Of a DNA stretch of 64,000 nucleotides, positions 43,965 to 64,000 are shown in pieces. Below the pieces are notes generated by a model. The model made no database searches, was not told the DNA's origin, and saw only the letters and a program-made list of their open reading frames with translations. A program made the translations under genes and the position numbers. Source of the stretch: Rhodococcus tibetensis (GTDB lineage: Bacteria; Actinomycetota; Actinomycetes; Mycobacteriales; Mycobacteriaceae). The stretch lies in assembly GCF_024438035.1 (NCBI RefSeq), contig NZ_JANFQF010000028.1, positions 1 to 64,000 of the forward strand, given 5' to 3'. The stretch's first letter is position 1, and every line of letters starts with the position of its first letter.

Positions 43965-43984
43965 AGATAAGGAAGGACCTGCTG

Positions 43985-46146: not shown

Positions 46147-46791
46147 CGTTGTTCTCCTTCTCGGGCGTTCTGCAGTGTGCCGAACGCCTACCCCCACGTC
46201 GGAAACACAAACTACTCTTGTTTACCTCGACGTCGTTGCAGCGCGCCGCGGGTTCGGGTTTCCTCGCCGCTGTCGACACCCCCGGCGCTTCGATCGCCGA
46301 GCTGTTGTGGGTGTTCTACCCGTACGCTCTGCTCACCGTCGGATCCAGGGTGAGCGTTCCCGTGCGGCGCACGCTTCCGACCCGACGCACTCACCTGAGG
46401 GTGTTGGCCCGTTCATCAGTCACGAGCTGAGTGCTCGTCAAGTCGGCCAAGTCTGCTCGACCATCGTCACGTCTGAAACATTTGTGCAATTGAGGGCGGT
46501 GTGTACGTCGCCCCGGCGGATACTCGTTCGAGAACATCGTCCCCGGCCGATCCGGTGGCCTCACTCCCCGGAGCTCCCACGGCACACAGAGTTCGGGTCC
46601 GGAAGGTGACGACCTGCATCGAGTGATCGGGTGACCGCCGATCCCTGACTGGTCAGGCCACCCCTCGGAAAGCACATAAACCGCCTTCCGCCCTGACAGA
46701 TTCGGCTCGACATCGTTGACCTGGGTCAGAGCGTCCCCGCGAGATTCTCGAACGGTCGCCAATGCTCGAGTGGCACCACGGTGCGGCAATG
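46147..46791. other. Intergenic region without recognised gene
   Basis: 645 bp between the hemerythrin start and the end of the second desaturase. Open frames on the plus strand (for example 46019-46609) are out of register with good codon use and lack ribosome-binding sites. No RNA gene or array seen. Confidence 0.5.
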
Positions 46792-48000
46792 TCAGACTCC
46801 CACACGGTCGCGGATTGCTGTCAACAGCCCGCGGCGCACGCCCGTGGCCGGGTCGATCCGCGGCCTGGGATCGGTGAACTTGCGTTCCGACGCGGTTTCG
46901 GGCGCGTCGTCGGCGGTCGCTTGCAGAAACTGGTTCGGCAGCGCCAGCTTGGCGATGGTGCGCCAGGACTGCAGGTACTGAACGGGCAGCGATCCGGTCG
47001 TGTAGGGCAGGTCGTACCTTTCGCACAGCGCACGCACGCGCACGGATATTTCGCGCAGCCGGTTGCTCGGCAGATCGGGGAACAGGTGATGCTCGATCTG
47101 GTAGCAGAGGTTGCCGCTCATGAACTCCACGACCGGCCCCGCCTCGAAATTCGCGCTGCCGAGCATCTGGCGCAGGTACCACTGCCCCCGCGTTTCGTCC
47201 TCCACGTCGGCCTCGGTGAACTTCTCCGCGCCGTCGGGAAAATGCCCGCAGAAGATGACCATGTTGGTCCAGACGTTGCGGATCATGTTCGCCGTCAGGT
47301 TCGCGGTGAACGTGGACAGGAACGCCGGACCGGTCAGTGCCGGGTAGACGAGATAGTCCTTGGCGATCTGCTTGCCGACCTTCTCGAGCACCTCGCGGCC
47401 TCTGCGCACGAACTCGACACGATCGACACCGCCCTTGGCTACCTTGCCCAGCTCCAAGTGCTGGAACGCCACGCCGTACTCGAAGAACAGTTGCAACAGC
47501 AGGTTGTAGACAGGATTGCCGACGCTCCACGGCTGCCAGCGCTGATCGCGGGTGACGCGAAGCAGGCCGTAGCCCACATCGTCGTCCATCCCGAGCACAT
47601 TGGTGTACTTGTGATGGATGTAGTTGTGGGTCTGCTTCCAATGCTCTGACACTCCGGCAATGTCCCACTCCCACGACGACGAGTGGATCTCCGGATCGTT
47701 CATCCAATCCCACTGACCGTGCATGACGTTGTGGCCGAGCTCCATGTTCTCGACGATCTTGGCGGTGCCGAGCAGCGCCGTGCCGGCAAGCCAGGCCGGG
47801 GGAAACCAACTCGCGAACAACACTGCGCGACCACCCGTTTCGAGGGACCGCTGTAGCCGGATCGTGGTGTGAATGTACCGGGCGTCCCGCTCGCCACGCG
47901 AGGCTTCGATATCACGCCGGATCGTGTCGAACTCGCCGCAAAGCGCCTCGACATCCGCTTCGGTCAGGTGGGCATAGTCCGTAACATCGGAAATCGCCAT
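46792..48000 (-). CDS. Acyl-CoA desaturase (paralogue of the DesA3-like enzyme)
   Basis: A 402-residue di-iron desaturase with the same boxes: His-Asn-Val-Met-His, His-Asn-Tyr-Ile-His-His, Gly-His-Phe-Pro-Asp, Gln-Ile-Glu-His-His. It shares long blocks with the protein at 43985 but lacks its extended tail. It has no dedicated reductase gene beside it and may use the reductase at 42846. A tandem pair of small palindromes immediately upstream (48013-48040) is likely its operator. Confidence 0.92.
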   Translation of the reverse strand: MAISDVTDYAHLTEADVEALCGEFDTIRRDIEASRGERDARYIHTTIRLQRSLETGGRAVLFASWFPPAWLAGTALLGTAKIVENMELGHNVMHGQWDWMNDPEIHSSSWEWDIAGVSEHWKQTHNYIHHKYTNVLGMDDDVGYGLLRVTRDQRWQPWSVGNPVYNLLLQLFFEYGVAFQHLELGKVAKGGVDRVEFVRRGREVLEKVGKQIAKDYLVYPALTGPAFLSTFTANLTANMIRNVWTNMVIFCGHFPDGAEKFTEADVEDETRGQWYLRQMLGSANFEAGPVVEFMSGNLCYQIEHHLFPDLPSNRLREISVRVRALCERYDLPYTTGSLPVQYLQSWRTIAKLALPNQFLQATADDAPETASERKFTDPRPRIDPATGVRRGLLTAIRDRVGV

Positions 48001-49971: not shown

Positions 49972-50244
49972 TCACAAATCGCCAGTGCCGCCCGCAGCCT
50001 GAGCAGCCAGTTCAGTATGTATCCGTTCGGATTGTCCATGCAGAGTCGGGTCGTCGAGCAACCAACTGAGCTTGTAGTCGATCCCGAACTCACGCTCGAC
50101 CCGTTCGACCAGTCGGACAGCCAGGATTGAGGTTCCACCCAGTCCGAAGAAGCTATCGTCACGGTTAATGGGGATGGCCTCCCCGAAGAGGCGCTGCCAA
50201 AGTTCGACCAAGGCATCCTCAATCGAATTGTTGTTTTGAGTCAC
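49972..50244 (-). CDS. Free-standing peptidyl/acyl carrier protein
   Basis: A 90-residue carrier protein. The phosphopantetheine site is Ser39 in Asp-Asp-Ser-Phe-Phe-Gly-Leu-Gly-Gly-Thr-Ser-Ile-Leu-Ala, the typical PCP motif. GTG at 50244 follows AGAGAGG. It is the last gene of the minus-strand cluster, 34 nt after the acyl-CoA-dehydrogenase-like gene, and could carry the substrate of that enzyme. No separate adenylation gene is present in the window to load it. Confidence 0.9.
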   Translation of the reverse strand: MTQNNNSIEDALVELWQRLFGEAIPINRDDSFFGLGGTSILAVRLVERVEREFGIDYKLSWLLDDPTLHGQSERIHTELAAQAAGGTGDL

Positions 50245-50278
50245 AGGGTTGCCTCTCTGCAGGTAGATGGCGGGCGGC

Positions 50279-51388
50279 TCAAGAAAGAACGAGCCGCCCG
50301 CCGTTGTAGTAGTTGAGCAACGCAGGAATTCCGTCTCGAGTGCCCCCGGGGTGGAAGGCAAGTGCTCGAGCGGCGGCCGCAGCCCGGAAGTTGTCGGGAG
50401 TGGCATGTATGCCCAGCACTCGCAGTGCGTGACTGGTTGACTCTCGGATTGCGCGCTGTGCCGCCACGCGGCAGATGATGCCGTCGGCCAGGGCGGACTG
50501 CCCGCGGTCCCCGGCGTCCACGCGTTGCGCGAGCCCACGTACAGCTAGGTAGGCCCCTTCGAGCATCGCTATGGAGTCGAGGACCGTTTCGATGCCGGCT
50601 CCCGGTGCATTCGCGGCTGCCTCGACCAGTCCGCTTGCGGCTCCCAAGTATGCTGCCGTGATTAGGATTTCAAACCAGATTAGGTTCGCGCTGGCTCCCT
50701 TCCCTGCGGTGTCCGCCCCGATCGGGATGATCGCCTCGGGAGGGACGTACACGTTCTTCAAACGGATCTCGTCGGTCTGCGAGGCGGCGAGTGCGTCGTT
50801 TAGCCACAGTTCGTGTCGGTGCAGATGCGGATGGTCGGCGTCAATGAGGAGGATTGCCATCTCTCCGGACATTGGGTGGCCGTCGGGTAGGCGGACCAGC
50901 ATGGAAAGAATGCCCATGTCCCATACCAATGAGCACGGCCGCTTGACCCCGTTGACGACCACACCGCTGTGGTGCTCGCGGACTTCGATTCCTGGATTGA
51001 AGACGCCGCCGGTTTGCTGTCCTTCTGCCCCGCAGGATGCAACCAGAAGTCGTTGCCGCGCAATGCGCTCGAGGATGGGCGCACGCAGTTCCGGTTGCAG
51101 TGTCTCGGCCAGCCAGGCAATCTTGTAGTGGTGCATGGTGGTTCCCACGGCCACCGATGCGCTACGACTGCCGAGGGCACGCATCACCTCGGTGGCTTGG
51201 GTTGCGTTCGCCCCCAAGCCACCGTGCTCTCGGGGTACCAGCAGTCCAGCGCCACCGGCTGCAGCAAAGTCCCGGATCACGCTGGATCCTCGGGCTTCGA
51301 GGTTCGCCGGTTCCTGACGAGAGAGCTGCTCGTCGAACCCGGGCAAGAGCCGTGCGAGTTGCTCACGCTCACGGTGCAGAAACGTCAT
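50279..51388 (-). CDS. Acyl-CoA (acyl carrier) dehydrogenase-like flavoprotein
   Basis: A 369-residue protein of the acyl-CoA dehydrogenase fold: N-terminal helices with Gly-Leu-Leu-Val-Pro-Arg-Glu-His-Gly-Gly-Leu-Gly-Ala, middle barrel with Asn-Gly-Val-Lys-Arg-Pro-Cys-Ser-Leu, and C-terminal bundle. The family's usual FAD-loop residues are weakly conserved. In natural-product clusters, such enzymes oxidise carrier-bound thioesters (for example prolyl-PCP). ATG at 51388 follows AGGAGG and overlaps the acetyltransferase gene by 20 nt. It is homologous to the shorter, more divergent protein at 53315. Confidence 0.8.
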   Translation of the reverse strand: MTFLHREREQLARLLPGFDEQLSRQEPANLEARGSSVIRDFAAAGGAGLLVPREHGGLGANATQATEVMRALGSRSASVAVGTTMHHYKIAWLAETLQPELRAPILERIARQRLLVASCGAEGQQTGGVFNPGIEVREHHSGVVVNGVKRPCSLVWDMGILSMLVRLPDGHPMSGEMAILLIDADHPHLHRHELWLNDALAASQTDEIRLKNVYVPPEAIIPIGADTAGKGASANLIWFEILITAAYLGAASGLVEAAANAPGAGIETVLDSIAMLEGAYLAVRGLAQRVDAGDRGQSALADGIICRVAAQRAIRESTSHALRVLGIHATPDNFRAAAAARALAFHPGGTRDGIPALLNYYNGGRLVLS

Positions 51389-51941
51389 GCCCACCTCCTG
51401 ATGTCGATTTCTCGATGTCTGGTGTGGCGATCGGTTCGAGCGACCGCACGAAGCAGACTCGATCAAGGCCTTTGCCGTCGTAGTCCGGTTGCACGTCGAA
51501 CCCGCCGGAGTGGGGACGGCCGGTGGCGACCTCGAACCCCAGGGCACGGTGGAATCCGATCGATCTGATGTTTCCTGGGCTAGTCACGCAGGACACCCTT
51601 GTCGCCCCTCGACTCGCGCACAATTCGAAGAAGCGCCGGTAGAGCCGTCCTCCAAGTCCGTGCCCGCGCAGATCGGGATGCACTCCGACGAAATGAATGT
51701 ACGCCTGGCCGGCGCGGGATTGAGACATGAAACCGATTAGGTAAGCGGCCACCTCGTCACGAGGGTCGGTGACGACCATGGAGATGTCCGCGAAGTGTTG
51801 GAAGAACAACCGTGGGAGGAGCAACATCCGTTGGTTCGCTGCTTGCGGATCACCCCAGTCGTCCCACCATGCGGTCAGTGTGCGATGGATGGGGAGGAAG
51901 TCGTCCTCCTCCAGGGGTCTGATCGGGTAGCCGCTGGTCAT
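51369..51941 (-). CDS. GNAT family N-acetyltransferase
   Basis: A 190-residue acyltransferase. Acetyl-CoA motif: Val-His-Pro-Asp-Leu-Arg-Gly-His-Gly-Leu-Gly-Gly-Arg-Leu (Arg-x-x-Gly-x-Gly/Ala type) near residues 90-103, preceded by Tyr-Ile-His-Phe-Val-Gly-Val and followed by Asn-Ile-Arg-Ser-Ile-Gly-Phe-His-Arg-Ala-Leu-Gly-Phe. ATGA overlap with the PIG-L gene. Its link to the deacetylase suggests modification of an amine of the pathway product or its self-protection (inference). Confidence 0.85.
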   Translation of the reverse strand: MTSGYPIRPLEEDDFLPIHRTLTAWWDDWGDPQAANQRMLLLPRLFFQHFADISMVVTDPRDEVAAYLIGFMSQSRAGQAYIHFVGVHPDLRGHGLGGRLYRRFFELCASRGATRVSCVTSPGNIRSIGFHRALGFEVATGRPHSGGFDVQPDYDGKGLDRVCFVRSLEPIATPDIEKSTSGGGHDVSAP

Positions 51942-52681
51942 GTTGCCAGTGTCACCTTTTCGAACTCGACCGCGTACTCTGCACCGTACCGCCGCCCGGT
52001 TTCTTGGGCGAGGGTACGCACGTAGTCAATGGCATCGAAGTCGCCGAGACCGGCGAGGTATTCCTTGTGCTCGGCCAGTGAAGCCAGCGCCGACTCGATG
52101 TGCTCTGTCACATCGACTCCAATGGTCGATCGGGGAGAGTGCGCAGCCAGAAGCCACTGGGTACCTGCCCACGGTTCGAGGCCCTCGTCCAACAACTCTC
52201 GGAACACCCACCGGTTGGCGGCGTCTCGTACGCCGTCGAGAAGTGCTTGCCCGGTTGCGATGTGATCGGCCTGATTCAATTCGCCGGTGTCCCAGACATC
52301 TCGGAAATTGTTGGTGATGATCACTTCGGGGCGGGTCTGGCGAACTACACGGCTGATTGCGCGTCGCAGCGGCAGCCCGTATTCGAGTACGCCGTCGGGG
52401 AAGTCGAGGAACCTCACGTCGTTCACCCCGACCAGGCGAGCAGATGCCACTTGTTCGAGGGCGCGAATTTCGCCGGCTTTGTCCGGGTCCATGCTGTCGA
52501 TCCCGGCTTCGCCGCGGGTCACCATGCAGTAGGTGATCTGCCGGCCTTCGCTGGTCCAACGGGCGATTGCCGCGGCGGCGCCGAATTCAAGGTCGTCGGG
52601 GTGTGCGACCAGAGCCAACCCTTTGGACCAATTCTCGGGCTCCTCGTCTCGGGTGATCTGTGGCTCGGGTGTGGCGTTCAT
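51938..52681 (-). CDS. PIG-L family deacetylase (LmbE-like)
   Basis: A 247-residue zinc amidohydrolase. The metal motif Ala-His-Pro-Asp-Asp-Leu-Glu lies near residue 27 and the third ligand is the His in Gln-Ala-Asp-His-Ile-Ala-Thr near residue 140. Relatives include MshB and Mca of mycothiol metabolism and deacetylases of natural-product pathways. ATGA overlaps with both neighbours show tight operon structure. It may remove an N-acyl group or cleave a mycothiol conjugate formed during biosynthesis; both are inferences. Confidence 0.88.
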   Translation of the reverse strand: MNATPEPQITRDEEPENWSKGLALVAHPDDLEFGAAAAIARWTSEGRQITYCMVTRGEAGIDSMDPDKAGEIRALEQVASARLVGVNDVRFLDFPDGVLEYGLPLRRAISRVVRQTRPEVIITNNFRDVWDTGELNQADHIATGQALLDGVRDAANRWVFRELLDEGLEPWAGTQWLLAAHSPRSTIGVDVTEHIESALASLAEHKEYLAGLGDFDAIDYVRTLAQETGRRYGAEYAVEFEKVTLAT

Positions 52682-53328
52682 CGGATCTGCCCTGCTTCCT
52701 CTGTTCGGCGAACGTCGGCCACTTCGGCCATGTGTTCGGCAAGTTCCTGTTGAGTGTGAGTGCCGCCGCTGAGGTATTCGACCTGACGGTCAAGGTCCGT
52801 GCTTGTCTTGTTCTGGCTGAGCTTGAACGCACCTTCGACTTCGGCCATCGGCAGCTCGAAGGCGATCACTCGGGCCAGGAACCCCTCGAACAGGTGCAAC
52901 GGTCCGGAGCGGATGTCGACTGCGTCGGGTCCCGGTATGGGCCCCTCGCTGGTATCTATCAGAGTGCGTAGGAAGCGCACGGTTTCTGTGCGGTCGAGCC
53001 CGCGGAGCGCTCCGCGGACGTGAACGATGGAATAGTTCCACGTCGGGAAGTGCGCGGCCGGTTCCAGATAGTGGCGAGGGCTGATGTAGCTTTGCGGGCC
53101 GACGAACGCGGCTGTGGCCTCTGCGCCGGACCGTACCGCTTCGGTCAGGGGGTTTGCGAGCGCAAAGTGTCCGAGTAGTCGATCACCGTCTTCATCGAGC
53201 ACGAAAGGGATGTGCACGACTGCGGGCCGCTCATTGACCAGCGCGATCAGGGTTGCGAAAGGGTGTGCCCGAATCAGGGTCCGGATCGCCTGCGGATCGT
53301 TCTGTCGGTAGTGCTCAGGGATGTACAT
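52678..53328 (-). CDS. FMN-binding negative regulator-like protein (PaiB family)
   Basis: A 216-residue protein starting Met-Tyr-Ile-Pro-Glu-His-Tyr-Arg, with Ile-Pro-Phe-Val-Leu, His-Phe-Ala-Leu-Ala-Asn-Pro-Leu, Phe-Val-Gly-Pro-Gln-Ser-Tyr-Ile-Ser-Pro and Phe-Lys-Leu-Ser-Gln-Asn-Lys, all hallmarks of the PaiB split-barrel family. GGAGGAACC precedes the ATG at 53328. Family members bind FMN or haem; within biosynthetic clusters they may act as oxidases or reductases instead of regulators. It overlaps the preceding gene by 14 nt. Confidence 0.88.
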   Translation of the reverse strand: MYIPEHYRQNDPQAIRTLIRAHPFATLIALVNERPAVVHIPFVLDEDGDRLLGHFALANPLTEAVRSGAEATAAFVGPQSYISPRHYLEPAAHFPTWNYSIVHVRGALRGLDRTETVRFLRTLIDTSEGPIPGPDAVDIRSGPLHLFEGFLARVIAFELPMAEVEGAFKLSQNKTSTDLDRQVEYLSGGTHTQQELAEHMAEVADVRRTEEAGQIR

Positions 53329-54364
53329 GGTTCCTCCCATCCGCGCCGCGTGTACTGGCATCTTCGATCAATTGGGGAATCAGCGTAGTTCCGGCGGTCG
53401 GGAAAAAGCTGCCAGGTAAGGCAATCCGGGCGAGCGCAAGCTGCGCAACGGACGGAGAGTTCCGGGAAAAGGACATTCCACCGAGTGCCTCCAAGGCCCA
53501 GTCGCTCAGATCCTCGATGGTCTGGCCTACGGCTTGGTTCGTGAGGAACGCCATGGCGAGTTCCCGTTTGCCGGTTTCTCCTGACTCGACGGATCGAAGT
53601 ACACCGCGTAGTGCCTCCCGCGCCATAGCGAATTTTCCGATCACTGATCCTGCGGTCGCTCGATGCCTGTGGTCAGCGACCAATCCGTCCAGTACTCCGG
53701 CTACGACTCCTGTGGCTGCCGCCGTCAAGACCGTCACTGTGAGTGCACGTAGACGATTGAGATCACCCGCATCGAGCGATTGAGAAAGGACCTCTCTCTC
53801 CCGCAAGTCCGACGTCGCCAGTGTGAGGGTCAATCCATCCCGGCCCCAACGTCCCAGGCGAGGATCACCGGCATTGTCGGTGAGATCGGCGGTGAAGAGA
53901 TGGACTAGTCGGTAATTCTTGATTTCTCGGATCAGTACAGAGACCGTTGGTGGGACCGGTCCTGGTAGGTGGACCACACGAAGCTCATTGCCGTCCGATG
54001 GTGCAACGAAAGTCGCATGCTCGAGGTCAGCCATACCGCGCTCGACTCCGCACCCAACTCGCCCTGCCAAAGCAGACAGCAGTACATCCCGAGCCGGGCT
54101 TGGCGGCTGGCTACACGCCCATAGCGTTTCGGCCAGTTGTCCGGCGACATCCACAGCGGCCGCCGGAGCGTGCACGCCTAACGCAGCCAGTCCAGCGACA
54201 GCGTCAGCGCCGACAGCACCGGTGCCGCCGTGCGAGGTAGGGAGAGCCAATGTTGCCCCTCGGCGTCGGAGTTCCGTGGGGTCTTCAGCGGTGATCGCCT
54301 CCACCGTGGTGTACTCGGGCAACAGTCGGGCGAGCACGGCTCGATCACCCTCCAGCGGAATCAT
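53315..54364 (-). CDS. Divergent acyl-CoA dehydrogenase-like protein
   Basis: A 349-residue protein similar in outline to the gene at 50279: Leu-Ala-Leu-Pro-Thr-Ser-His-Gly-Gly-Thr-Gly-Ala (compare Val-Pro-Arg-Glu-His-Gly-Gly-Leu-Gly), and a C-terminal bundle with Ile-Glu-Asp-Leu-Ser-Asp-Trp-Ala-Leu-Glu-Ala-Leu-Gly-Gly. The central barrel is poorly conserved, so it may be a partner subunit without FAD, as in heteromeric acyl-CoA dehydrogenases. ATGA overlap with the NRPS gene stop. Pairing with 50279 is an inference. Confidence 0.6.
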   Translation of the reverse strand: MIPLEGDRAVLARLLPEYTTVEAITAEDPTELRRRGATLALPTSHGGTGAVGADAVAGLAALGVHAPAAAVDVAGQLAETLWACSQPPSPARDVLLSALAGRVGCGVERGMADLEHATFVAPSDGNELRVVHLPGPVPPTVSVLIREIKNYRLVHLFTADLTDNAGDPRLGRWGRDGLTLTLATSDLREREVLSQSLDAGDLNRLRALTVTVLTAAATGVVAGVLDGLVADHRHRATAGSVIGKFAMAREALRGVLRSVESGETGKRELAMAFLTNQAVGQTIEDLSDWALEALGGMSFSRNSPSVAQLALARIALPGSFFPTAGTTLIPQLIEDASTRGADGRNHVHP

Positions 54365-57300
54365 GAAGTCCTCCCTGACAACCTGCTCAGGTGGTCGGAG
54401 ATCAGTTCGCTGAGCTGTTGTCGAGCCGGCTCCGCCATGATCGAGTAGTGGTCGGTGTGCGCAATCGTGTGCATCTCATGGCCTTCCGGTCGAGGCGCGA
54501 GCCGGGAGAATGCCGCTCGGTTCTGTGCGCCGATGGAGAGGGTCGGCGGATCTGTGTCGTCCAATTTGGTGTAATTGACCAGTGCCTCGGCGTTGGCCCG
54601 GTGGACGCGGAAGAGGGTGAGTAGTTGCGCTGGCTCGAACGGTTCCACCAACAGTCCGGCCCGTACCAGCTGATCCTGACCAGTAGTGAGATGCTCGGCG
54701 GGGTTTGCTGAAAGTTCGGTGTCACTGACTGGGCGCAACAACTCGCGGACTGGGCCCCCGCCAGTAATGTTCTCGAAAAAGCCCACGAAAGCGTCGGTGT
54801 GGGGGCCGGAATTCTCACCTCCAGGACCGTAGCTGTCGATCGCGACGACGGCTCCCACCTCGCGTCCCGCGGCTGTCAGCCGTGCAGCCAACAGCCTTGC
54901 CAAGATCCCTCCCATCGACCAACCAACCAGGTCAATTGACCCTTCGGGAATGGTGCGGGCCACTTCCTGTGCTGCGATTGTCGAGATTTCATCTAAGTCT
55001 CCGATGGGGTCCTCGCCTGGAGCCAATCCGGGTGCACGGAACGCGTGGAATCCCCAGTCAGCTCCCAATGTTTGAGCGAGCGCGTCAGCGAGCTCGGCGT
55101 AACAGACAATGTTTCCTCCCACCGGATGCGGCATGAGGACGTGCCTCAGCCTTCCCGGCGTCAACGTAACGATTACCGGATTCCGTTGCTCGGCTGCGCT
55201 GACGGCGGACGCCATCTCGGCTAGGGTGCGGTTCTCGAAGATAAGACTCAGCGGTACATCGCGTCCCCACACTCGGCGAATGCGGTTTACCAGCCGCATA
55301 CCGGCCAGCGAATTTCCTCCGCAAGCGAAGAAGTCCGACTCGGTGTCGAACTCGAATGGTGGGATAACCTCGGCCCACATGCGCGCCAGGTCCTGTTCCG
55401 GCTCGGTCAAGACTTTCCGCGGGCCGGTCGCGCTTTGTTGCTGGGACATGTCTGTCCGTACTAACCGGGACACGGCGTTTCGGTCTACTTTGCCGTTGCC
55501 GCTGAGTGGCAACGCCTCGATCACGGTGATGGCTCGGGGGACCATGTACGGGGGTAGGTCGCGTCCTGCTGTAGCCCGCAGTCCCCGTGGGTCGATGCTG
55601 CGCCCGTCCTCGACCACCACGGCCGCCACTAGGATACGGGAGTTGTGGTCCTCCAGGACGACAGCGACTGCGGCTGCAACTCCGGGGGCTCCTCGTAGGC
55701 TAGCCTCGACTTCTCCCAATTCGATGCGATATCCGTCGATCTTGACCTGGTTGTCTTTACGGCCCAAAAATTCCAGGACTCCCCCCGGCCGGTAACGTGC
55801 CCGGTCGCCGGTTCGATAGAGCCGCCCGAGTTCGGGATGCTCTATGAAGTGATCGGCTGTGCGTTCCGGGTCGTTCAGGTAGCCCCGAGCCAGGCCGACG
55901 CCCCCGATGTAAAGGTCGCCGGGAATCCACTCAGGCGCCGGCGATCCGTCTTGGTGTAGTACGTGCATCTGCTGGTTGGCGAGTGGAAACCCGTACGGGA
56001 TCGATGGCCAATCGGGCGGTGTCTCGGCGGTGTCGAAGGAGTTCGACCAGATCGCGGCTTCGGTTGCCCCGCCCAGGCTGTGGACGGCTGCTTGGGGGGC
56101 TACTCTGTGCAATTCGGTCACCAGGCTGGGCGGTACCCAATCGCCGCTCAGCATCACCAGTCGTAGCTCGGCAAGTGTGTTGGTCGCGTTGTCGCCGAGA
56201 TGTTCGAGTAGTAGTTGCATCAACTGGGGAACGGAATTCCAGACGGTTACTCGATGTGTGCGGATCAGATCGGCCCATTCCTCGGGGGAGGGTCCACCGC
56301 GATCGGCCGGGATGACGAGCCGTGCGCCGACGCGTAGCGTCGCGAAGATGTCGAAGACCGACAGGTCGAAGGCGATCGAAGAGACACCCAGGACCGTGTC
56401 GTCTGATCCGAGGTCGAACCGGCCGATTAGGTCACTGATCGTATTGGCGGTGGCCCGGTGGCTCATCGCAACACCTTTGGGGGTGCCGGTGGACCCTGAG
56501 GTGTAGATGACGTAGGCGAGGTCGTCCACGCTGCGGAGCGTTGAGTCTTCGGTTTCGCCGTCTGGTGCGCTTTGGGCACTTGGGCCGGGTGTGATGCCGA
56601 GACCACCATCCGGCGCCGTAGTCACTAGCACGACAACCCGACTGTGCTCGAGGATCGTACGAATTCGGCCGTCCGGCCAGGACGGGTCGGCGGGTAGGTA
56701 AGCGGCGCCTACTCGTTGCACGGCCAGTGCGGCCACCACCTGGTCGCGGCCGCGTGGCAGGTGCAGGCCCACCAGGTCTCCGCTGCGGACGCCGGTACCG
56801 ATCAGTCGCGCAGCCAAGGAGTCGACCTGGTTGACCAGGTCGACATAGCTGAGCGTTCCACGGGAGTCGACGATAGCTGTACGGCTCAAACTGATTTGAC
56901 CTTGAGTGAGTACGGGTCCGTCCAGTGTTACCGGGCGCAGGTTCTGGGCAGTGTTATTAATCCGGGTGCGGTCAAGCAGATCGCCTGGTGCGACATGGAG
57001 CACTTTCTGTGTGGTCCACGCCTTCGGATCCGTGGACAGGGAGTGGAGTGCGGACTCGTAGACCTTGAGGAACGAGTCGATCAGCGTGGGCGAGAACATC
57101 GTTTCATCGAAATCGGTGGTGCAGACGAGTGCGCCGTGCTCGAGGTCGACCTGCTGGTCGAGGGACACCTGTGGGGTGCTCAAACTGCTGGAGACGAGTT
57201 CGCTACCGGGAAGGTCCAAGATGAATCCTGGTCCGCTCTCGGGTACGAGGTCGATTCCGCTGGTGAAGACCACCAGATTGCCGGTTGGGCCGGTCACCGC

Positions 57301-58488
57301 AGTCCGTTGCCGGATCCGGCTGATTTCCACACCGCCGACGGACTGGTGTTCCAGTGACTCGAAGAGTGCTTGTTGGTGGGCGCGGGCACGTTCGACGAAC
57401 GGCCCGTTCGTGTTTCGGGTCACTACTGGGGTGGTCATCGAGCAGTTTCCCCAGACCGTGTCGAGGTCGGGGTCGCCGGTCGATCGCTGGGTCAGAAGCA
57501 CCGTGATCGTGCCCGCGTCTTCGCCTGACCACCGCTGGGCCAATTCTGCAAATAGGCCGAACAGTGCGGACACGTTCGGGATTCCGTGGCGGCGAGCGTT
57601 TTCACTGAATGCCTGCCAGGAGGGTGCACTCAGTCTGATGGTGCGGCGCACCAGCGCCTTCCCTGTCGGGTGTGGGTCGGATGACGCCACGGACGGCCAA
57701 CGCAGCGGCCCTGGCAAATCGCCGGCTCTTGAACGCCAGTAAGACAACGCATTTTGATATCTCACACCCTCGCGGGCGTGGCTGCGAGCGGCCACGAAAT
57801 CGCCGAAAGTCGCACGCTCGGCTGAGGGCCTGTACTCGGCGTCGAGGTAGCAACGTGTGATCTCGCGCAGCAACATCAGGGTGCTCGCTCCGTCGAAAGC
57901 GATCAGGCGCAGCGCGAGCTGCAGTCTGTCGCCTTCCGGGCAGCGGAGTAGACGGAACAGGTATGGCCGTCCCGATGTCAGCGGTGGAAGATCCCGGATC
58001 AGATTGGTTCGCAAGGCTGTCAGGTGCTCCGAGTCGGTGACATCGACTACCACCAGAACCGGATCGTTGTCAGGCGGCGTCACCCATTGGCGTCCTTCCG
58101 GGTCGAAAGCCAACCGCATCGCCGAACGCCGAGAACGAATCCGACGTAGCGCACCGTCGAGGAGTTCGGAATCGACTCCGTCCACGGAGTACTCGTGGTA
58201 CATCACCGCTGGGCGTTTTCCCTCCAGGCCCTGCTCTCCCACCATGTAGGCCTGTTGAAGATCCGTCAGCTCGAACGACTCGTCTGTTCTGTTCTGTCGG
58301 CGGGTTCTGTGCCAGTTCTCGTCAGCAGCGAGCATTCGTAACAGGGCCGCCTTGTGCTGTGCGATCTTTCCGCGCAGCCCATCGTCCACCGCGTCCGGCG
58401 GGCCGGTGTACTTGATACGGTCCCCGACAAGCCTCAGCCTTACACCCTTCGTTCGAAGTTGATCGAGTAGTGCGTCAGTCTTGGTCAT
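54361..58488 (-). CDS. NRPS: TubC docking - heterocyclization - adenylation (Cys) - PCP - thioesterase
   Basis: A 1375-residue synthetase. Residues 1-55 match the TubC N-terminal docking domain (Leu-Leu-Asp-Gln-Leu-Arg-x-x-Gly-Val-x-Leu). Residues 60-490 are a cyclization domain: Thr-Asp-Leu-Gln-Gln-Ala-Tyr, Pro-Gln-Val-Ser-Leu-Asp-Gln-Gln and the Asp-x4-Asp-x2-Ser site, in which the first Asp is Arg194 (Arg-Leu-Ile-Ala-Phe-Asp-Gly-Ala-Ser). The A domain (515-1005) has Tyr-Thr-Ser-Gly-Ser-Thr-Gly-Thr-Pro-Lys-Gly; the ten pocket residues read D-L-F-N-M-S-L-I-W-K, close to the cysteine code D-L-Y-N-L-S-L-I-W-K. PCP Ser1060; thioesterase Gly-Trp-Ser-Met-Gly-Gly (Ser1191) and His-Thr-Asp-His-Tyr. 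ATG at 58488 overlaps the previous gene. Confidence 0.92.
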   Translation of the reverse strand: MTKTDALLDQLRTKGVRLRLVGDRIKYTGPPDAVDDGLRGKIAQHKAALLRMLAADENWHRTRRQNRTDESFELTDLQQAYMVGEQGLEGKRPAVMYHEYSVDGVDSELLDGALRRIRSRRSAMRLAFDPEGRQWVTPPDNDPVLVVVDVTDSEHLTALRTNLIRDLPPLTSGRPYLFRLLRCPEGDRLQLALRLIAFDGASTLMLLREITRCYLDAEYRPSAERATFGDFVAARSHAREGVRYQNALSYWRSRAGDLPGPLRWPSVASSDPHPTGKALVRRTIRLSAPSWQAFSENARRHGIPNVSALFGLFAELAQRWSGEDAGTITVLLTQRSTGDPDLDTVWGNCSMTTPVVTRNTNGPFVERARAHQQALFESLEHQSVGGVEISRIRQRTAVTGPTGNLVVFTSGIDLVPESGPGFILDLPGSELVSSSLSTPQVSLDQQVDLEHGALVCTTDFDETMFSPTLIDSFLKVYESALHSLSTDPKAWTTQKVLHVAPGDLLDRTRINNTAQNLRPVTLDGPVLTQGQISLSRTAIVDSRGTLSYVDLVNQVDSLAARLIGTGVRSGDLVGLHLPRGRDQVVAALAVQRVGAAYLPADPSWPDGRIRTILEHSRVVVLVTTAPDGGLGITPGPSAQSAPDGETEDSTLRSVDDLAYVIYTSGSTGTPKGVAMSHRATANTISDLIGRFDLGSDDTVLGVSSIAFDLSVFDIFATLRVGARLVIPADRGGPSPEEWADLIRTHRVTVWNSVPQLMQLLLEHLGDNATNTLAELRLVMLSGDWVPPSLVTELHRVAPQAAVHSLGGATEAAIWSNSFDTAETPPDWPSIPYGFPLANQQMHVLHQDGSPAPEWIPGDLYIGGVGLARGYLNDPERTADHFIEHPELGRLYRTGDRARYRPGGVLEFLGRKDNQVKIDGYRIELGEVEASLRGAPGVAAAVAVVLEDHNSRILVAAVVVEDGRSIDPRGLRATAGRDLPPYMVPRAITVIEALPLSGNGKVDRNAVSRLVRTDMSQQQSATGPRKVLTEPEQDLARMWAEVIPPFEFDTESDFFACGGNSLAGMRLVNRIRRVWGRDVPLSLIFENRTLAEMASAVSAAEQRNPVIVTLTPGRLRHVLMPHPVGGNIVCYAELADALAQTLGADWGFHAFRAPGLAPGEDPIGDLDEISTIAAQEVARTIPEGSIDLVGWSMGGILARLLAARLTAAGREVGAVVAIDSYGPGGENSGPHTDAFVGFFENITGGGPVRELLRPVSDTELSANPAEHLTTGQDQLVRAGLLVEPFEPAQLLTLFRVHRANAEALVNYTKLDDTDPPTLSIGAQNRAAFSRLAPRPEGHEMHTIAHTDHYSIMAEPARQQLSELISDHLSRLSGRTS

Positions 58489-59416
58489 CGACGCTCCCCA
58501 GTAGGAGCGCGGCACTATGAGCTACCCCGAGCCCCATCAGTAAGCAGGTGGCCCCCTCGTCCGGGTGGGCGGTCTGCAGGTCGACCAGGTTGATCAACGG
58601 GTCGCTGCCCAAGCAATGCCCGTGTGTGGCTATGTTTTCGAGGAATAGTGCGTCCTCGCGGTAGCCGACATCGTCGAGGTAAGTAATCAGTAATCGCCGC
58701 GCAAGATTACTGGGCAACACCATGTCTGGGCGTCGCCACCATGCGCCGGTCGTCTTCTTCAATTGACCGTGGAGCCGACGTTGGGCTGCTATCCGCAGCC
58801 TGAGCTGTTGATGGGGGGGCAGGTCCTCGTTAATCAAGTCGGGGCTGTAGTCGAAGGCCGCTCCGAGTACCGTACGACCGGGTCCTTCAGTGCCGATCAG
58901 AACGGCGGCGCCGGCGTCGCTGGCCACAGCGCTTCCGCCGGCGACGATCCGTGTTCCTTCGGCGGCGATTTCCGCGACGTCGCCGGAAATGACCAGCGCG
59001 TTGCGGTATATGCCTTTCTCGACCATGGCTGCCGCGGTCGCTATCGCGACAACTGGTGCGGCGCAGTCGAGCAGGCCCACGGTGGATGGTGTCGCCACCG
59101 GCAGGTGCAGCTCGGTGGCCAAAGTACGCACTTCGTCGTGCGCACTCCGGGTCCGCGCGAGCGAGTCTGTGGCGAGCAGGACGGCGTCGATCTCCTCCGG
59201 AATCACTCCGGTGCTCGCCAGGACCTTCTCTGCTGCTGCGGTCATGAGCTCGAGGACGGATCCGTCAGTCGAGCGGATCGTATGGAATCCGCCGTCCTCA
59301 CCGAGTAGAAAATCTCGGAGCTGCGGTGTCTGGTTCAATTCCTCGAGATCTGACGCCAGCTCGGAGTGTTCTCCCAGTTCGTATGCGCACGCGAGGATCC
59401 GTGCTGGGCGGTTCAC
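58475..59416 (-). CDS. KAS III-like ketosynthase / acyltransferase (thiolase fold)
   Basis: A 313-residue protein of the KAS III branch. The nucleophile is the Cys in Val-Gly-Leu-Leu-Asp-Cys-Ala-Ala-Pro-Val near residue 117; Val-Leu-Pro-Ser-Asn stands at the usual Pro-His-Gln-Ala-Asn position (His replaced), and His-Gly-His-Cys-Leu-Gly-Ser-Asp-Pro near the Asn/His loop. Such divergent KAS III proteins make C-C, ester or amide bonds using carrier-bound substrates in several actinobacterial clusters. GTG at 59416 overlaps the condensation gene stop (GTGA). Confidence 0.8.
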   Translation of the reverse strand: MNRPARILACAYELGEHSELASDLEELNQTPQLRDFLLGEDGGFHTIRSTDGSVLELMTAAAEKVLASTGVIPEEIDAVLLATDSLARTRSAHDEVRTLATELHLPVATPSTVGLLDCAAPVVAIATAAAMVEKGIYRNALVISGDVAEIAAEGTRIVAGGSAVASDAGAAVLIGTEGPGRTVLGAAFDYSPDLINEDLPPHQQLRLRIAAQRRLHGQLKKTTGAWWRRPDMVLPSNLARRLLITYLDDVGYREDALFLENIATHGHCLGSDPLINLVDLQTAHPDEGATCLLMGLGVAHSAALLLGSVDDQD

Positions 59417-60798
59417 GAGCCGGTTCCCGCCGTGTGCCGCGCGCTCTGCACCGTTCCGTCGGCGCTGGAGGCGCCGAGCCGCTCGCACTCGGCGGCGAGG
59501 CGCCCACCCAGATCAGCGATCGTTTCGGCGTGATACCGCGAAGTGTCGTATTCCAGCCATAGCTGCGCGCCGTTCGGTCCTGAATCGACGGTTATGGTCA
59601 GGTCGTATCGGGCGGTTGCCCGGGGAATATCGGCAACCACCTGATGGCTCCATCCTGCGGAAGTGGCTGCAGCCATCTCTTCATGGACCAGGACCCAGTC
59701 GAACAGCGGATGTGCGTGTGCGATTCCCCGCGTCCACCGTTCGGCTACGATTTCTCCCGGATAGGCACCGAAGCGCTGCGCGGAGCGGATGGCGGCCCAT
59801 GCGCCCTGGACTCGTTCACGAACCGTGCCGCCCAACTGAAGCCTCAGCGGGACGACGTTCAGCAGGTATCCCACTGTTCCTTGGCTGGCGGGCTGTTCTC
59901 GGTTCGAGGTGAAGATCCCGATCAGTACGTCGTCGGTGCCGCCGTACCGGGCGGCCACCGCGTGCACCGCTGTGGCCCAGACCGAGAACACGGAGCATGA
60001 TGCACGCTGTGCAAGGGAGGTCATGCAGTCGGTTGTCACCTGAGGGATGTCTACCACCAGGCGGGCGCCGTCCCGGGTTGCCTCTTGGCTACGTCCGGCG
60101 TCGCACGGTAGCGGCATCGGCGGGCTCTGGACTATCTCTCGCCAGCGTTCGGCAGCATGGGTGCCGTTCTCGTGATCGATCCACGCCCTTTGCCAATCGG
60201 CGAAGTCCGGGAAGGTCGCCGACTCGGGGGTGTTCTGCCCGTCTAGTGCTTCGCGCAACAGCTGGAACGACCAGGCGTCGAAGACGATGTTGTGCACAGC
60301 AACGAGGCACCAGGAGCTGCCATCCGGACCGGGAGATACTTGGGCCCGCAGCAGCGGCCCGTCGTCTAAATCGGTGGTGGCTGCCGCCAGCACGATGACG
60401 GCAGAGGCGGCCTCGGCTTCCGAACTCACCGGCTCACCAACTGAAAGGGCGACTCGCGGCTGACCGTTGACCACCTGCCGGACACCCTGAGGGGTTCGCT
60501 CGAACCGAAGCCGGAAGGCCTCATGTCGCGTGCAGAAATCCTCGAGTCTCTTTAGCGCTTCTAGGGGTTCGGTGTCGGGCAGGTGAACAGTCTGGCTGAC
60601 CACGTCAATCGGTTTGCCTGGGAACTGTTGTTGCACTGTCCACAACCGTTCCTGTCCCGCGGTCAGTGGCAGCGGCCGGTCTACTGGGACACGCCCAGGA
60701 GTCAGTCGTGTGACATCGCGGCGAACGGCTACCAGTGCCTCCAGTCGCGAGCGCTGTGCTGGGGTCAGGGCTCGTAGCCGTTGGTCGATCGGAATCAC
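59413..60798 (-). CDS. Free-standing NRPS condensation domain, altered active site
   Basis: A 461-residue condensation-domain protein (Leu-Thr-Ala-Gly-Gln-Glu-Arg-Leu-Trp start, Arg-His-Glu-Ala-Phe-Arg, Val-Gly-Tyr-Leu-Leu-Asn-Val-Val-Pro-Leu-Arg, Arg-Tyr-Asp-Leu-Thr). The catalytic motif, usually His-His-x3-Asp-Gly, is His169-Asn170-Ile-Val-Phe-Asp174-Ala175. The second, catalytic His is replaced by Asn. Its partner carrier is not evident; likely partners are the upstream PKS or the free PCP. It might lack condensation activity, serve as a scaffold, or catalyse a different reaction. GTGA overlaps on both ends. Confidence 0.85.
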   Translation of the reverse strand: MIPIDQRLRALTPAQRSRLEALVAVRRDVTRLTPGRVPVDRPLPLTAGQERLWTVQQQFPGKPIDVVSQTVHLPDTEPLEALKRLEDFCTRHEAFRLRFERTPQGVRQVVNGQPRVALSVGEPVSSEAEAASAVIVLAAATTDLDDGPLLRAQVSPGPDGSSWCLVAVHNIVFDAWSFQLLREALDGQNTPESATFPDFADWQRAWIDHENGTHAAERWREIVQSPPMPLPCDAGRSQEATRDGARLVVDIPQVTTDCMTSLAQRASCSVFSVWATAVHAVAARYGGTDDVLIGIFTSNREQPASQGTVGYLLNVVPLRLQLGGTVRERVQGAWAAIRSAQRFGAYPGEIVAERWTRGIAHAHPLFDWVLVHEEMAAATSAGWSHQVVADIPRATARYDLTITVDSGPNGAQLWLEYDTSRYHAETIADLGGRLAAECERLGASSADGTVQSARHTAGTGS

Positions 60799-61844
60799 TG
60801 CTGGCTCCCCTCATCTCCGTACTTGGTGGCGAGTTCGACCACATGTTTGAGGCTCTGGAGAACCAGGTCCTCGTCCACCCCGAAGTCGATCAGGCAGGCG
60901 ATCTCGGTGACGCCCATTCCTGCAAATCGCTCGACAACCGCGCTGCACGATTCGACGGTGCCCAGCAGCGAGCCCTTGTCGAAGTATTTCTGGAAGGCGA
61001 AGTCGATCAATTCGTCTTGGTCGCGTAAGTCCATGTCGCGGACCCCCGCTCCCGGTGCCATGTTCTGCTTCTGAGAGTCGACGACCTTCAAAAAGGACTT
61101 CAGATACTGCGTGAATGGTTCCGCAACGATGTCGCGTACCTCGTCACGGTCCTCACCGATGAAGGTGTGCAGCATGAGGGTGACTTCGGCGTCTTCACGG
61201 TCGTAACCGGCCTGTTCCCGCGCGTCCCAGTAGAGGGGCAGTTTCTGTTCGAGTTCCTCATTGGTCATGTCGATCAGTCCGGTCAGCACGTTGCATCCCA
61301 GTTGGCCTGCTGTGCGGAAAGTGTCGGCGCTCTTCGTGCAGGTCAGCCAGATCGGTAGGTCGGGCTGCACAGGTTGGGGGTGCAGCTCTACCTCTACCTG
61401 GTTTCCCAGTCCATCAGGAACGAAGACGGGGTTGCACTCCCACAATTCGCGGATCGTTTCGACGGCATTGAAAGTGCTCTCGCGCCTGTCGGCCCAGGCG
61501 CCGGGTTGCAGGGAGAAGTCCACCGGGCTGAACCCGGTTGCGAGCGCTACGCCGGCCCGGCCGCGGGACAGATTGTCGATGACCGCCCAATCCTCCGCGA
61601 TCCGGATCGGACTGTACAGCGGTGCAATGACGCTGCCCGCTCGAATTCCGAGCCGGTTGGTGGTCATCGCGAGCGCCGCTCCGAGAACGGCTGGATTGGG
61701 GTAGAGACCGCCGAACCGGTGGAAGTGTCGTTCCGGGGTCCAGATTGCGTGCAGACCGTTATCGTCGGCGAACCGGGCAGCGTCGAGCACAAATCGGTAC
61801 TTCTTCTTCTCGTCGCCGGAGAAGAAGATCAGGCTGAACTTCAC
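60795..61844 (-). CDS. LLM-class flavin-dependent monooxygenase (natural-product MupA/Atu3640-type)
   Basis: A 349-residue luciferase-like protein: Met-Lys-Phe-Ser-Leu-Ile-Phe-Phe-Ser, Trp-Thr-Pro-Glu-Arg-His-Phe-His-Arg-Phe-Gly-Gly-Leu-Tyr-Pro-Asn-Pro, Ala-Gly-Ser-Val, Ala-Glu-Asp-Trp-Ala-Val-Ile-Asp-Asn-Leu-Ser-Gly-type (Ser-Arg-Gly-Arg-Ala-Gly-Val), and Ala-Thr-Gly-Phe. This is the subfamily that occurs as stand-alone proteins or as domains in PKS/NRPS lines, where it hydroxylates carrier-bound acyl chains. GTG at 61844 overlaps the PKS stop (GTGA). It is therefore expected to act on the PKS-bound intermediate. Confidence 0.88.
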   Translation of the reverse strand: MKFSLIFFSGDEKKKYRFVLDAARFADDNGLHAIWTPERHFHRFGGLYPNPAVLGAALAMTTNRLGIRAGSVIAPLYSPIRIAEDWAVIDNLSRGRAGVALATGFSPVDFSLQPGAWADRRESTFNAVETIRELWECNPVFVPDGLGNQVEVELHPQPVQPDLPIWLTCTKSADTFRTAGQLGCNVLTGLIDMTNEELEQKLPLYWDAREQAGYDREDAEVTLMLHTFIGEDRDEVRDIVAEPFTQYLKSFLKVVDSQKQNMAPGAGVRDMDLRDQDELIDFAFQKYFDKGSLLGTVESCSAVVERFAGMGVTEIACLIDFGVDEDLVLQSLKHVVELATKYGDEGSQQ

Positions 61845-64000
61845 TTGGCCGGTACTCCTGTCGTCGGTTCTGTTGGCGGGGTCACCATGTCGAAAAGGTC
61901 GTCGACCTCTGCTGCGGAGAGCTGCGCGAGCATGTCGGCGAGGTCGCCGTCCGTGGAGTTGCCCGCTGGGCCAGGGGCGCCGTTCGGTACCGGACGGCGG
62001 ACCTCGATCAGGTCGGCCAGGTGTCCGGCGGTTGGCTGGTCCAGTGCATCCGCCAGTGGGATCTGTACGTCGAAGGTGCGTCGAATGTCCGACAGGAGCC
62101 GCACGATCAGTAGCGAGTCGCCGCCTCGTTCGAAGATGTCGTCTCCGGCGGCCATGTCCCTCGCACCGAGCGCGTCCCGCACGATGCCCAGTACGTGTTC
62201 CTCAGCGCTGCTGCCTATTGCGGGACGCTCAGCGGCTCCTGGGTCGTCTGAGGGTTGGCTTGTTCCGGGGTCGCGAACCCAAAGGTCGAGCCGGTGCTGA
62301 AGATCCCAGGTTGAAACTGCAATCGGTCCCGCACCGGAGAGTGCCAGGAGCCGCCGGATGATTTCCAGGCCTTCGTCCGGCTGAATTGCCTTGTCGTCCA
62401 TACCCCGGCCGATCGCGGAGATAGCTCGCTTCTCATCCTGGTGGTGTTGCCACACATCCCAACCTGCACTGATCCAGGTCGTGCCGTTCTCGCGTCGGTT
62501 GGCGCGTTCGGCGGCTGCGTCCATGAATCGGTTGGCAGCGCCATAGGCCATGAGTCGGAGCCCTCCGAGGACACCGGCGAGTGAGGACATCATCAGACAG
62601 AAGTCGACTGTTCTTGTGCGCAGTACGTCCTCGAGGGCTTGCTGTCCGTGTGCTTTGGCCTCAAAGTGCCATGCACACTGCTCTGCGCCGGATGCCGTTA
62701 CCGCGCGGTCCCATTTCTCGCTGGGTAGTCCTGCGGCGTGCACGACACCGTTGATCGGGCCGAGCACTGCCTCCACTTCGTCGATCGCTCTGCCGAGTTG
62801 AGTCGGATCAGCGACATTGGCGACGACAACCACGACTCCTGTTCCTGCTGCCTCTAGTTCGCGGAGGCGGCGGACCCGTAGGACGGGGGCGTCGGGATCG
62901 ATCAACGCGTCGCTTTGCGCTGCTGCATCTTCAGCGGCGGCGATTATGTCGTCCCATTCCTCCCGCGGGGGGACCGGGGTGCGCACCACAAGCCCCAATC
63001 GTGCTTGGCACTCTGACTGCAACATTCGACCGACTGTGGCCCCGATCTCACCGAGTCCACCGGTGATCAGGTAGGTGCCTGCGTCGTGCAGCGGTGAGCG
63101 GCGTGGGCGAGTCCAGTCAGCCTGTACCCTTTCGAAGTCCCGCACCCACCGCCCTCGACCGCGTAGAGCCTGGCCGGATTCGTGCACGACCCTGGTCGCC
63201 AACAACCCGGTGAGGGTCTGCAAGCTGACCGGGTCCAGGTCCAGAGGCAGGTCCCAGTGCAGCGATTCGATGTTCGCCTGTTCCTGCCCAACGACTTTCG
63301 CCGCTACTTCGAGCGGTACCCGTTCCGCCACAGGGTCAGGGTCGTCGTCGGTCACGGAGTAGGCGCCTGCGCTGATCAGGTCGAGGCGGATCGCCCCGGT
63401 AACGTTGTGTTCCGTCAACGCCTTCACCAAGGCGACCACACTGTGCAGGCCACGTTCCAACTCCTGCTCGAGTATTGCTGCCGGACCCCCTTCGGGTGTG
63501 CCGACCGACCATGCCATCACGATTCGGGTCGGGAGGTTGTCCTGCTCGCGCAACTGGTCGATCAGCGCTGAAAAGTCTCCTTCGTTCCCCGGCCGGATAG
63601 TGCCGTCCTGGTCATTGGTCGGAAGCCCATAGCAGTCTCCAGCGTGCACAGTGAAGAACCGCGATCCCACGTAGCGCTCGGTGAGGAGTGCCTTCAGAGC
63701 CAGGGGACGGTGGTTGTCCTCGAAGAGCAAGAAGACCTCAGAGCTGGGGTCGGTATCGTCGAGGTAGTCGACGCGGACCTGCTGCTGGTGCCAAACCGGG
63801 GTCCACATCCAGTGATCCACTGATTGTTTGTTGGATATGGCGGGAGAGGAACCGGCGGGCAGCGTCGCTTCGCCCGGCTCGACCCAGTAGCGGTGAGACT
63901 CGAATGGGTACGTCGGCAGCGGGACGCGGCGGCCGGTGCCGAGCCGATCCCAGTGCATCGTCAGACCTGCACACCATAGGCGGGCGTGGGCGGCGAGCAA
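61841..64000 (-). CDS. Type I polyketide synthase, C-terminal part (AT end - KR - ACP), cut by window edge
   Basis: At least 719 residues; the N-terminus is beyond the window. The segment starts at the end of an acyltransferase domain, including the post-AT linker Pro-Thr-Tyr-Pro-Phe-Glu-Ser-His-Arg-Tyr-Trp. It continues with a ketoreductase (Tyr-Leu-Ile-Thr-Gly-Gly-Leu-Gly-Glu-Ile-Gly; Tyr and Asn in Ala-Tyr-Gly-Ala-Ala-Asn; the B-type Leu-Asp-Asp motif is absent) and an ACP with Gly-Gly-Asp-Ser-Leu. No dehydratase is seen. The last 45 residues are Leu/Asp-rich and resemble a C-terminal docking segment. The first gene of the visible operon, it presumably feeds the NRPS at 54361. Confidence 0.9.
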   Translation of the reverse strand: MLAAHARLWCAGLTMHWDRLGTGRRVPLPTYPFESHRYWVEPGEATLPAGSSPAISNKQSVDHWMWTPVWHQQQVRVDYLDDTDPSSEVFLLFEDNHRPLALKALLTERYVGSRFFTVHAGDCYGLPTNDQDGTIRPGNEGDFSALIDQLREQDNLPTRIVMAWSVGTPEGGPAAILEQELERGLHSVVALVKALTEHNVTGAIRLDLISAGAYSVTDDDPDPVAERVPLEVAAKVVGQEQANIESLHWDLPLDLDPVSLQTLTGLLATRVVHESGQALRGRGRWVRDFERVQADWTRPRRSPLHDAGTYLITGGLGEIGATVGRMLQSECQARLGLVVRTPVPPREEWDDIIAAAEDAAAQSDALIDPDAPVLRVRRLRELEAAGTGVVVVVANVADPTQLGRAIDEVEAVLGPINGVVHAAGLPSEKWDRAVTASGAEQCAWHFEAKAHGQQALEDVLRTRTVDFCLMMSSLAGVLGGLRLMAYGAANRFMDAAAERANRRENGTTWISAGWDVWQHHQDEKRAISAIGRGMDDKAIQPDEGLEIIRRLLALSGAGPIAVSTWDLQHRLDLWVRDPGTSQPSDDPGAAERPAIGSSAEEHVLGIVRDALGARDMAAGDDIFERGGDSLLIVRLLSDIRRTFDVQIPLADALDQPTAGHLADLIEVRRPVPNGAPGPAGNSTDGDLADMLAQLSAAEVDDLFDMVTPPTEPTTGVPAK

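Follow-up and report, generated by a model that had tools for sequence, protein, structure and literature searches.

The 64,000 bases analysed here (hereafter the window) are the first part of contig NZ_JANFQF010000028.1 of Rhodococcus tibetensis, which is 82259 bases long in a genome of 5.81 Mb, and they end inside an operon that combines polyketide synthase (PKS) and nonribosomal peptide synthetase (NRPS) genes with tailoring genes. The operon comprises 18 genes, taken from lists of open reading frames (ORFs) with several start codons picked by eye, which lie on the minus strand at contig positions 49972-76358, and only 11 of them fall inside the window. A sequence-only reading of the window had described the operon as compact, of the PKS-NRPS kind and unusual in its set of tailoring enzymes, and this description holds but is partial, since it took in 11 of the 18 genes and the 3' part of the PKS. 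All 11 minus-strand genes that it listed are present and their families were correctly named, save for a "divergent acyl-CoA dehydrogenase" (ACAD1, 53315-54364), which is indeed a weak and shortened relative of the second acyl-CoA-dehydrogenase-like protein of the operon (ACAD2) but displays no Pfam, NCBIfam or PDB match. The same reading had most genes joined by ATGA or GTGA overlaps and, in fact, six of the ten in-window junctions are such 4-bp overlaps; of the other four, three are overlaps of 14, 14 and 20 bp, and the one that precedes the last gene is a 34-bp gap. Over the whole operon, 4-bp overlaps account for 11 of the 17 junctions, five range from a 20-bp overlap to a 5-bp gap, and one is the 34-bp gap. 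No Rfam family and no tRNA were detected in the 64-kb window.

Transcription proceeds, outside the window, through genes for a carbamoyltransferase (74400-76358), a class I methyltransferase (73294-74403), an FrhB/FdhB-like protein (72089-73297), a homologue of 5-enolpyruvylshikimate-3-phosphate (EPSP) synthase (70725-72092), a class III aminotransferase (69424-70728), a dehydrogenase assigned to the MDR type by a weak match (68387-69427), and an adenylation (A)-peptidyl carrier protein (PCP) unit (66541-68394). The PKS gene (61841-66535) crosses the edge of the window, with its 3' part (61841-64000) inside, and is followed by genes for a luciferase-like monooxygenase (LLM, 60795-61844), a free condensation (C) domain (59413-60798), a protein resembling ketoacyl synthase (KAS) III (58475-59416), and an NRPS composed of a TubC docking domain, a cyclization (Cy) domain, A, PCP and a thioesterase (TE) (54361-58488). 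After ACAD1 come a PaiB-type FMN-binding protein (52678-53328, PF04299), a PIG-L family deacetylase (51938-52681, PF02585), a GNAT acetyltransferase (51369-51941), ACAD2, a flavoprotein with an ACAD N domain match (50279-51388), and a free PCP with the motif LGGTS (49972-50244), whose GTG start was chosen by inspection.

Pfam domains and catalytic motifs place a module with ketosynthase (KS), acyltransferase (AT) and acyl carrier protein (ACP) domains together with A-PCP and C-type modules in a single cluster, which is thus a hybrid PKS-NRPS. The PKS has the composition KS-AT-ketoreductase (KR)-ACP, and the catalytic motifs examined in the KS, AT, KR and ACP are intact in all 15 PKSs compared; its AT carries HAFH, which by the motif rule for AT specificity indicates malonyl. 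The LLM scores 438.8 bits against a TIGR04020 cut-off of 244.45 and belongs to the MupA/Atu3671 family of FMN-dependent enzymes, for which alpha-hydroxylation is a precedent. With regard to the NRPS, whose TE displays the motif GWSMGG, both the "cyclization domain" and the "cysteine-type pocket" proposed from the window are supported. The A pocket, read by eye, is D-L-F-N-M-S-L-I-W and compares with the pyochelin code DLFNLSLIWK. The Cy part has eight PDB matches, each of them a Cy domain or a Cy-containing NRPS (6lta and Irp2 included), with EpoB the best (E 5.6e-38). The Thr-Asp dyad and the Gln helper are retained by motif (T418, D453 and Q455 of the longest ORF), and the DxxxxD motif is not kept, as its first Asp is an Arg in the segment GE..RLIAFD. 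In EpoB-Cy, according to PMC9547227, the catalytic residues are the Thr-Asp dyad, the Asp of DxxxxD is held to be structural, and an Arg of helix 1 bridges to the first Asp of that motif. In the family described below this partner is a Glu, so that the Arg-Asp pair becomes Glu-Arg in all five members read. We read the Cy domain as one predicted to work with an inverted structural salt bridge, and a thiazoline in the product, as the earlier reading had proposed, is plausible in view of the Cy domain and the Cys-like pocket.

The genes upstream of the PKS form a putative starter cassette. The cluster EPSP protein scores 275.5 bits, below the TIGR01356 cut-off of 287.25, and its phosphoenolpyruvate (PEP) loop is altered, two departures from a regular AroA; this loop reads DNSATTAR in R. 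tibetensis, GSSAAAR in the EPSP proteins of 13 relatives, and xGTxxR in five other AroA-like copies. The residues K22, R27, R124, Q171, D313, R344, H385 and R386 (E. coli numbering) are retained in all 14 cluster EPSP proteins, and E341 is replaced by Asp in R. tibetensis alone, whose protein is only 31-33% identical to the 13 others. In each of the 15 genomes searched, a family-type EPSP homologue is accompanied by one or more additional AroA-like genes, the family-type copy of S. diastatochromogenes being on a contig other than that of the locus. The FrhB-like protein is related to the beta subunits of F420 hydrogenases and shows a weak kinship with 7-hydroxymethyl chlorophyll a reductase, an enzyme that removes a hydroxyl; its Fe-S Pfam matches are below the cut-offs, and two Cys-rich motifs recur in the family. 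Finally, the pocket letters of the A-PCP protein, taken by motif position, are D-S-Q, S, A-G and A-C-A, and because they are identical in 15 of 15 clusters one shared starter substrate across the family is likely.

Several of the remaining enzymes depart from their canonical counterparts. The free C domain displays HNIVFDA in place of HHxxxDG, and in 15 of 15 family sequences the second catalytic His is missing (HN or PN) and DG is replaced by DA. The KASIII-like proteins share one invariant Cys and an HC.GSDPLI signature (HCLGSDPLIN in R. tibetensis) in 22 of 22 aligned sequences, and likewise in D. vinaceum, and of the Cys-His-Asn triad of KAS III (FabH) the His and Asn sites appear by eye to be changed. 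No full-length counterpart of ACAD1 was found in the relatives read, and AlphaFold modelled it with such low confidence (mean pLDDT, the per-residue confidence score, 43.2; no residue reaching 70) that the model is too poor for use. The nearest solved relatives of ACAD2 are DszC and prolyl-PCP dehydrogenase. Defence-system models gave no match for ACAD1, PaiB or PIG-L.

In order to place the operon among other clusters, nine genes were treated as the core: EPSP, aminotransferase, FrhB, MDR-type dehydrogenase, A-PCP, PKS, LLM, C and KASIII. A search with the LLM in 394 genomes of the class, that of R. tibetensis included, returned one other genome (G666) with a 74% match, which also has the core genes, while the remainder at E<=1e-90 were only 43-51% identical. 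A species-genome collection scanned with two exact short LLM peptide patterns, a procedure by which members may be missed, yielded 22 loci, 14 of them with an LLM 73-75% identical; these 14 are from 11 named Streptomyces, actinobacterium OK074, Dactylosporangium vinaceum and Umezawaea tangerina. In the genus to which G666 belongs, a KASIII profile of the family matched 8 of 295 genomes at E<=1e-60. Half of these (four) are new; the other four were already represented in the profile, being G666 itself and genomes with hits located where those of OK074, S. sulfonofaciens and S. rimosus lie. From these searches 16 full relatives were assembled, namely the 12 of the 14 scan loci that were fully readable, G666, and three further genomes of its genus (G1118, G1134 and G1149). 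The order EPSP, aminotransferase, FrhB, dehydrogenase, A-PCP, PKS, LLM, C and KASIII on one strand is found in all 16, and across the family clusters the LLM is 72-75% identical; three more loci, cut by contig ends (L041, L045 and G1222), hold part of the core, L045 being omitted from counts. The R. tibetensis operon has all nine core genes in one run on one strand, with eight of them in the identical order, and the exact order is broken solely by the FrhB gene, which here precedes EPSP and in the 16 full relatives follows the aminotransferase. The operon is a divergent member of a conserved actinobacterial family of hybrid PKS-NRPS clusters, and its gene grouping is taken to be beyond chance, because half of its genes (nine of 18) are found together again in 16 other clusters.

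We also considered whether these genes merely represent the usual neighborhood of such an LLM. A control set of 18 loci with an LLM 41-50% identical, three of them short (5.6-13 kb), rules this out: at E<=1e-6 none of the 18 matched the EPSP, aminotransferase, FrhB, dehydrogenase or KASIII proteins, nor the carbamoyltransferase, methyltransferase, PIG-L, GNAT, ACAD or PaiB proteins, and generic PKS or NRPS modules do occur there. Searching with the KASIII-like protein in 397 genomes of the order gave a match in 221 of them at E<=0.001, the best other than itself being 31% identical, and the 19 best of these non-self loci (the match and 1.5 kb on each side) displayed KAS- or PKS-type matches only. 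The same protein had no match in plasmids.

Outside the core the family is variable. Among 17 relatives, some of them truncated where a contig or the retrieved region ends, 14 have a GNAT gene, five an S15 peptidase, two an M17 aminopeptidase, one a PIG-L, three a carbamoyltransferase and one a methyltransferase. The closest in content is the cluster of D. vinaceum NRRL B-16297, which has 17 of the 18 genes in common with the R. tibetensis operon (carbamoyltransferase 54% identical, LLM 75%, Cy NRPS about 40%, and a weak free-PCP match of 29%) and the only PIG-L counterpart (62%); it differs by the absence of ACAD1, the presence of a flavin reductase, and the order of FrhB and of the tailoring part. 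In Streptomyces AC1-42W and S. dysideae, counterparts of the Cy NRPS (39-43%), ACAD2, carbamoyltransferase (54-55%), PaiB, PCP and GNAT genes occur together with the M17 aminopeptidase, with no match to PIG-L or the methyltransferase in either cluster; the PaiB counterparts in these two and in D. vinaceum are 40-42% identical. G1134, in the region as far as ACAD2, has Cy NRPS, ACAD2 and GNAT genes, and further stretches downstream of its core resemble a second Cy NRPS (35%), an ACAD (34%) and PaiB (32%), so that two related lines may lie side by side in this genome. S. tauricus and S. dioscori have GNAT and ACAD2. In clusters of the S. rimosus/noursei type the nine core genes and GNAT are shared with R. 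tibetensis, but there are two KASIII-like genes, and an A-PCP-C NRPS replaces the Cy protein (Pfam, on G666 and OK074). By Pfam the S. rimosus cluster includes an MFS transporter, an FMN dehydrogenase and an S15 peptidase, the latter found in five family members; a small protein of this cluster (L081:7454-7765) suspected by eye to resemble chorismate mutase had no Pfam match and was dropped. G666 has a double GNAT, and OK074 alone has a second class III aminotransferase (32%) after the NRPS (L061:8848-10089).

In an unrooted tree built from the nine core proteins of 14 clusters (4828 columns; the contig-cut S. diastatochromogenes omitted), the R. tibetensis cluster stands alone on a branch 1.6 substitutions per site long, at near-equal distance to all others; D. 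vinaceum was left out of one alignment (A4), where its KASIII gene crosses the cut between loci. No other genome in a sample of 400 from its own family has this LLM at E<=1e-110, and ACAD1 matches none of 27 other genomes of its genus at E<=0.001. This pattern fits the horizontal gain of an old lineage, with no donor identified. Import signalled by base composition was considered and not seen (GC 0.630 in the cluster against 0.644 in positions 1-49000 of the window).

Based on the gene content, gene order, motifs and family membership described above, we infer the following pathway. The EPSP paralogue, the FrhB-like Fe-S/flavin enzyme, the MDR-type dehydrogenase and the aminotransferase would convert a shikimate intermediate to an amino-carbocyclic acid of the cyclohexene or cyclohexane type, which the A-PCP protein would load and the PKS extend by one malonyl unit with reduction of the ketone. 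The LLM would then oxidize the position beside the carbonyl, and the Cy-A-PCP-TE protein, docked via TubC, would add cysteine as a thiazoline and release the product. A side acyl or aminoacyl group may be transferred and oxidized by the free C, the KASIII-like protein, the free PCP and the ACAD proteins, and carbamoyl and methyl groups would be added. The least certain step is an N-acetyl mask, put on by GNAT and taken off by PIG-L. Self-protecting producers are known to use N-acylation followed by removal, and the co-occurrence of GNAT with a hydrolase in eight of the 14 GNAT-bearing relatives (PIG-L in one, S15 in five, M17 in two) suggests such a scheme; PIG-L enzymes usually deacetylate amino sugars. 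The idea is weak, because none of the three hydrolases was seen in six GNAT-bearing relatives and no GNAT in G1149.

To this reading as a whole, a divergent family member with an amino-carbocyclic starter, a malonyl and cysteine assembly line and tailoring, we assign a probability of about 0.37. That its core is a new branch of the shikimate pathway, in which an EPSP enzyme whose PEP loop has been rebuilt and an Fe-S flavoprotein of the FrhB type (catalyzing reductive deoxygenation or double-bond reduction) feed an amino-carbocyclic acid directly to an A-PCP/PKS line, with the C and KASIII-like proteins working through non-canonical active sites, is a tentative proposal. A number of observations weigh against the scheme. 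EPSP kinship is the one feature that points to a ring, and the loop change in all 14 cluster EPSP proteins means that their chemistry may differ; the Asp in the A-PCP pocket, a residue that usually reads an alpha-amino acid, fits such a substrate better than a ring amino acid, and the carrier motif of this protein is GLNS here and GGTS in 14 relatives. The usual catalytic His is absent from the free C domain, ACAD1 has no family match, and the roles given to both of these, to the KASIII-like protein, to PaiB and to the mask are conjectural. Carbamoylation and methylation genes occur in few relatives (3 of 17 and 1 of 17), hydrolases of the three kinds were not seen in 6 of the 14 that bear GNAT, and no GNAT was seen in 40 kb of G1149. 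Finally, Pfam-type scans of the 18 operon genes found no transporter or regulator family.

The same EPSP evidence bears on two other explanations. The cassette of EPSP, aminotransferase, FrhB and dehydrogenase might make a non-ring amino acid, for instance a beta- or gamma-amino acid, with the EPSP relative recruited for another enolpyruvyl or elimination reaction; the altered loops, the Asp at position 341 in R. tibetensis and the alpha-amino-acid Asp of the A pocket are in accordance with it, as is the EPSP homologue BsnM of bisenarsan, proposed in PMC12159101 to act on arsenate. Against this stands the retention in all 14 proteins of the eight residues listed above, and we regard a non-ring product as somewhat unlikely. 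A second AroA-like gene in 15 of 15 genomes could instead mean that the cluster copy confers self-resistance and that the product inhibits EPSP synthase, the more so as the equivalent of G96, a position linked to glyphosate tolerance, is replaced in the cluster copies. However, in 16 of 16 full relatives the gene sits with those for the aminotransferase, FrhB and dehydrogenase, which fits a biosynthetic role, and an identity of only 31-33% separates the R. tibetensis protein from the 13 others; self-resistance is accordingly improbable.

It may also be that the family product is already characterized and that the operon is a new host's copy of a known pathway, which is compatible with the other explanations. 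Some hosts, S. rimosus and S. noursei for example, are Streptomyces that have been studied intensively, but among the matches listed in open-access full-text literature, subscription journals lying outside that scope, we recognized no paper describing this gene set; such an outcome appears unlikely. Least probable of all is the siderophore half of the earlier "thiazoline- or thiazole-containing polyketide-peptide (siderophore or antibiotic)". The Cy-A(Cys-like)-PCP-TE architecture and the PDB relatives of the Cy part, which include yersiniabactin- and pyochelin-type synthetases, would suit a thiazoline siderophore; nevertheless, the 18 genes include no salicylate or aryl-acid supply, hydroxamate or transport family, and two relatives tested combine the same core with an A-PCP-C NRPS. 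With no supporting gene among the 18, this explanation was rejected.

Several known systems share features with the operon. Dithiolopyrrolone (holomycin-type) clusters have a Cy-A-PCP NRPS, an ACAD, a free C domain and an acetyltransferase, all shared with the R. tibetensis operon, but the latter has no phosphopantothenoylcysteine-decarboxylase- or thioredoxin-oxidase-type family at cut-off and carries a PKS and the EPSP cassette instead, and a holomycin-type cluster was rejected on the gene set. The cyclohexanecarboxylate starter pathways of ansatrienin and phoslactomycin use an EPSP-synthase homologue for an alicyclic unit; in contrast, the operon has an aminotransferase, an FrhB-like enzyme and A-PCP loading. 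The bisenarsan cluster, likewise of the antibiotic type, combines BsnM with PKS genes; it differs in that its chemistry is built on arsenic and involves a mutase as well as a decarboxylase (PMC12159101). A link to stravidin/amiclenomycin was dropped, the terms "EPSP" and "luciferase" being absent from the main text of PMC13336041. The cluster is thus a hybrid PKS-NRPS, a known kind, in a family without a link to a product; we know of no product of any member, the D. vinaceum and S. rimosus/noursei-type clusters included. Should the amino-carbocyclic scheme be correct, a small conserved gene set, fully read in 17 actinobacterial genomes including R. tibetensis, would make an amino-acid-like building block, and several related products would differ in one swappable end, carrying cysteine, another amino acid or others. 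It would also provide a new biosynthetic route, a condensation domain devoid of its catalytic His, a Cy domain whose salt bridge is reversed, and a defined group of strains, some of them with culture-collection numbers, where the product could be sought.

As for the genomic setting, the host is probably a mycolic-acid actinobacterium, because its genome has a mycolate Pks13 scoring 2782.7 bits, which exceeds the cut-off. The C-terminal portion of the same profile also matches five open frames of unusual length (7,418 to 9,843 codons) on several contigs, which suggests giant NRPS genes. Upstream of the operon and near the contig end, an ORF with an integrase core (rve, 78028-78978) is a possible trace of a mobile element. 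Downstream lie two fatty-acid desaturase genes (43961-45370 on the plus strand and 46792-48000 on the minus strand), beside which are a gene of the 2Fe-2S/FAD reductase type (42846-43964, plus strand) and one with a hemerythrin domain (45439-46197, minus strand).

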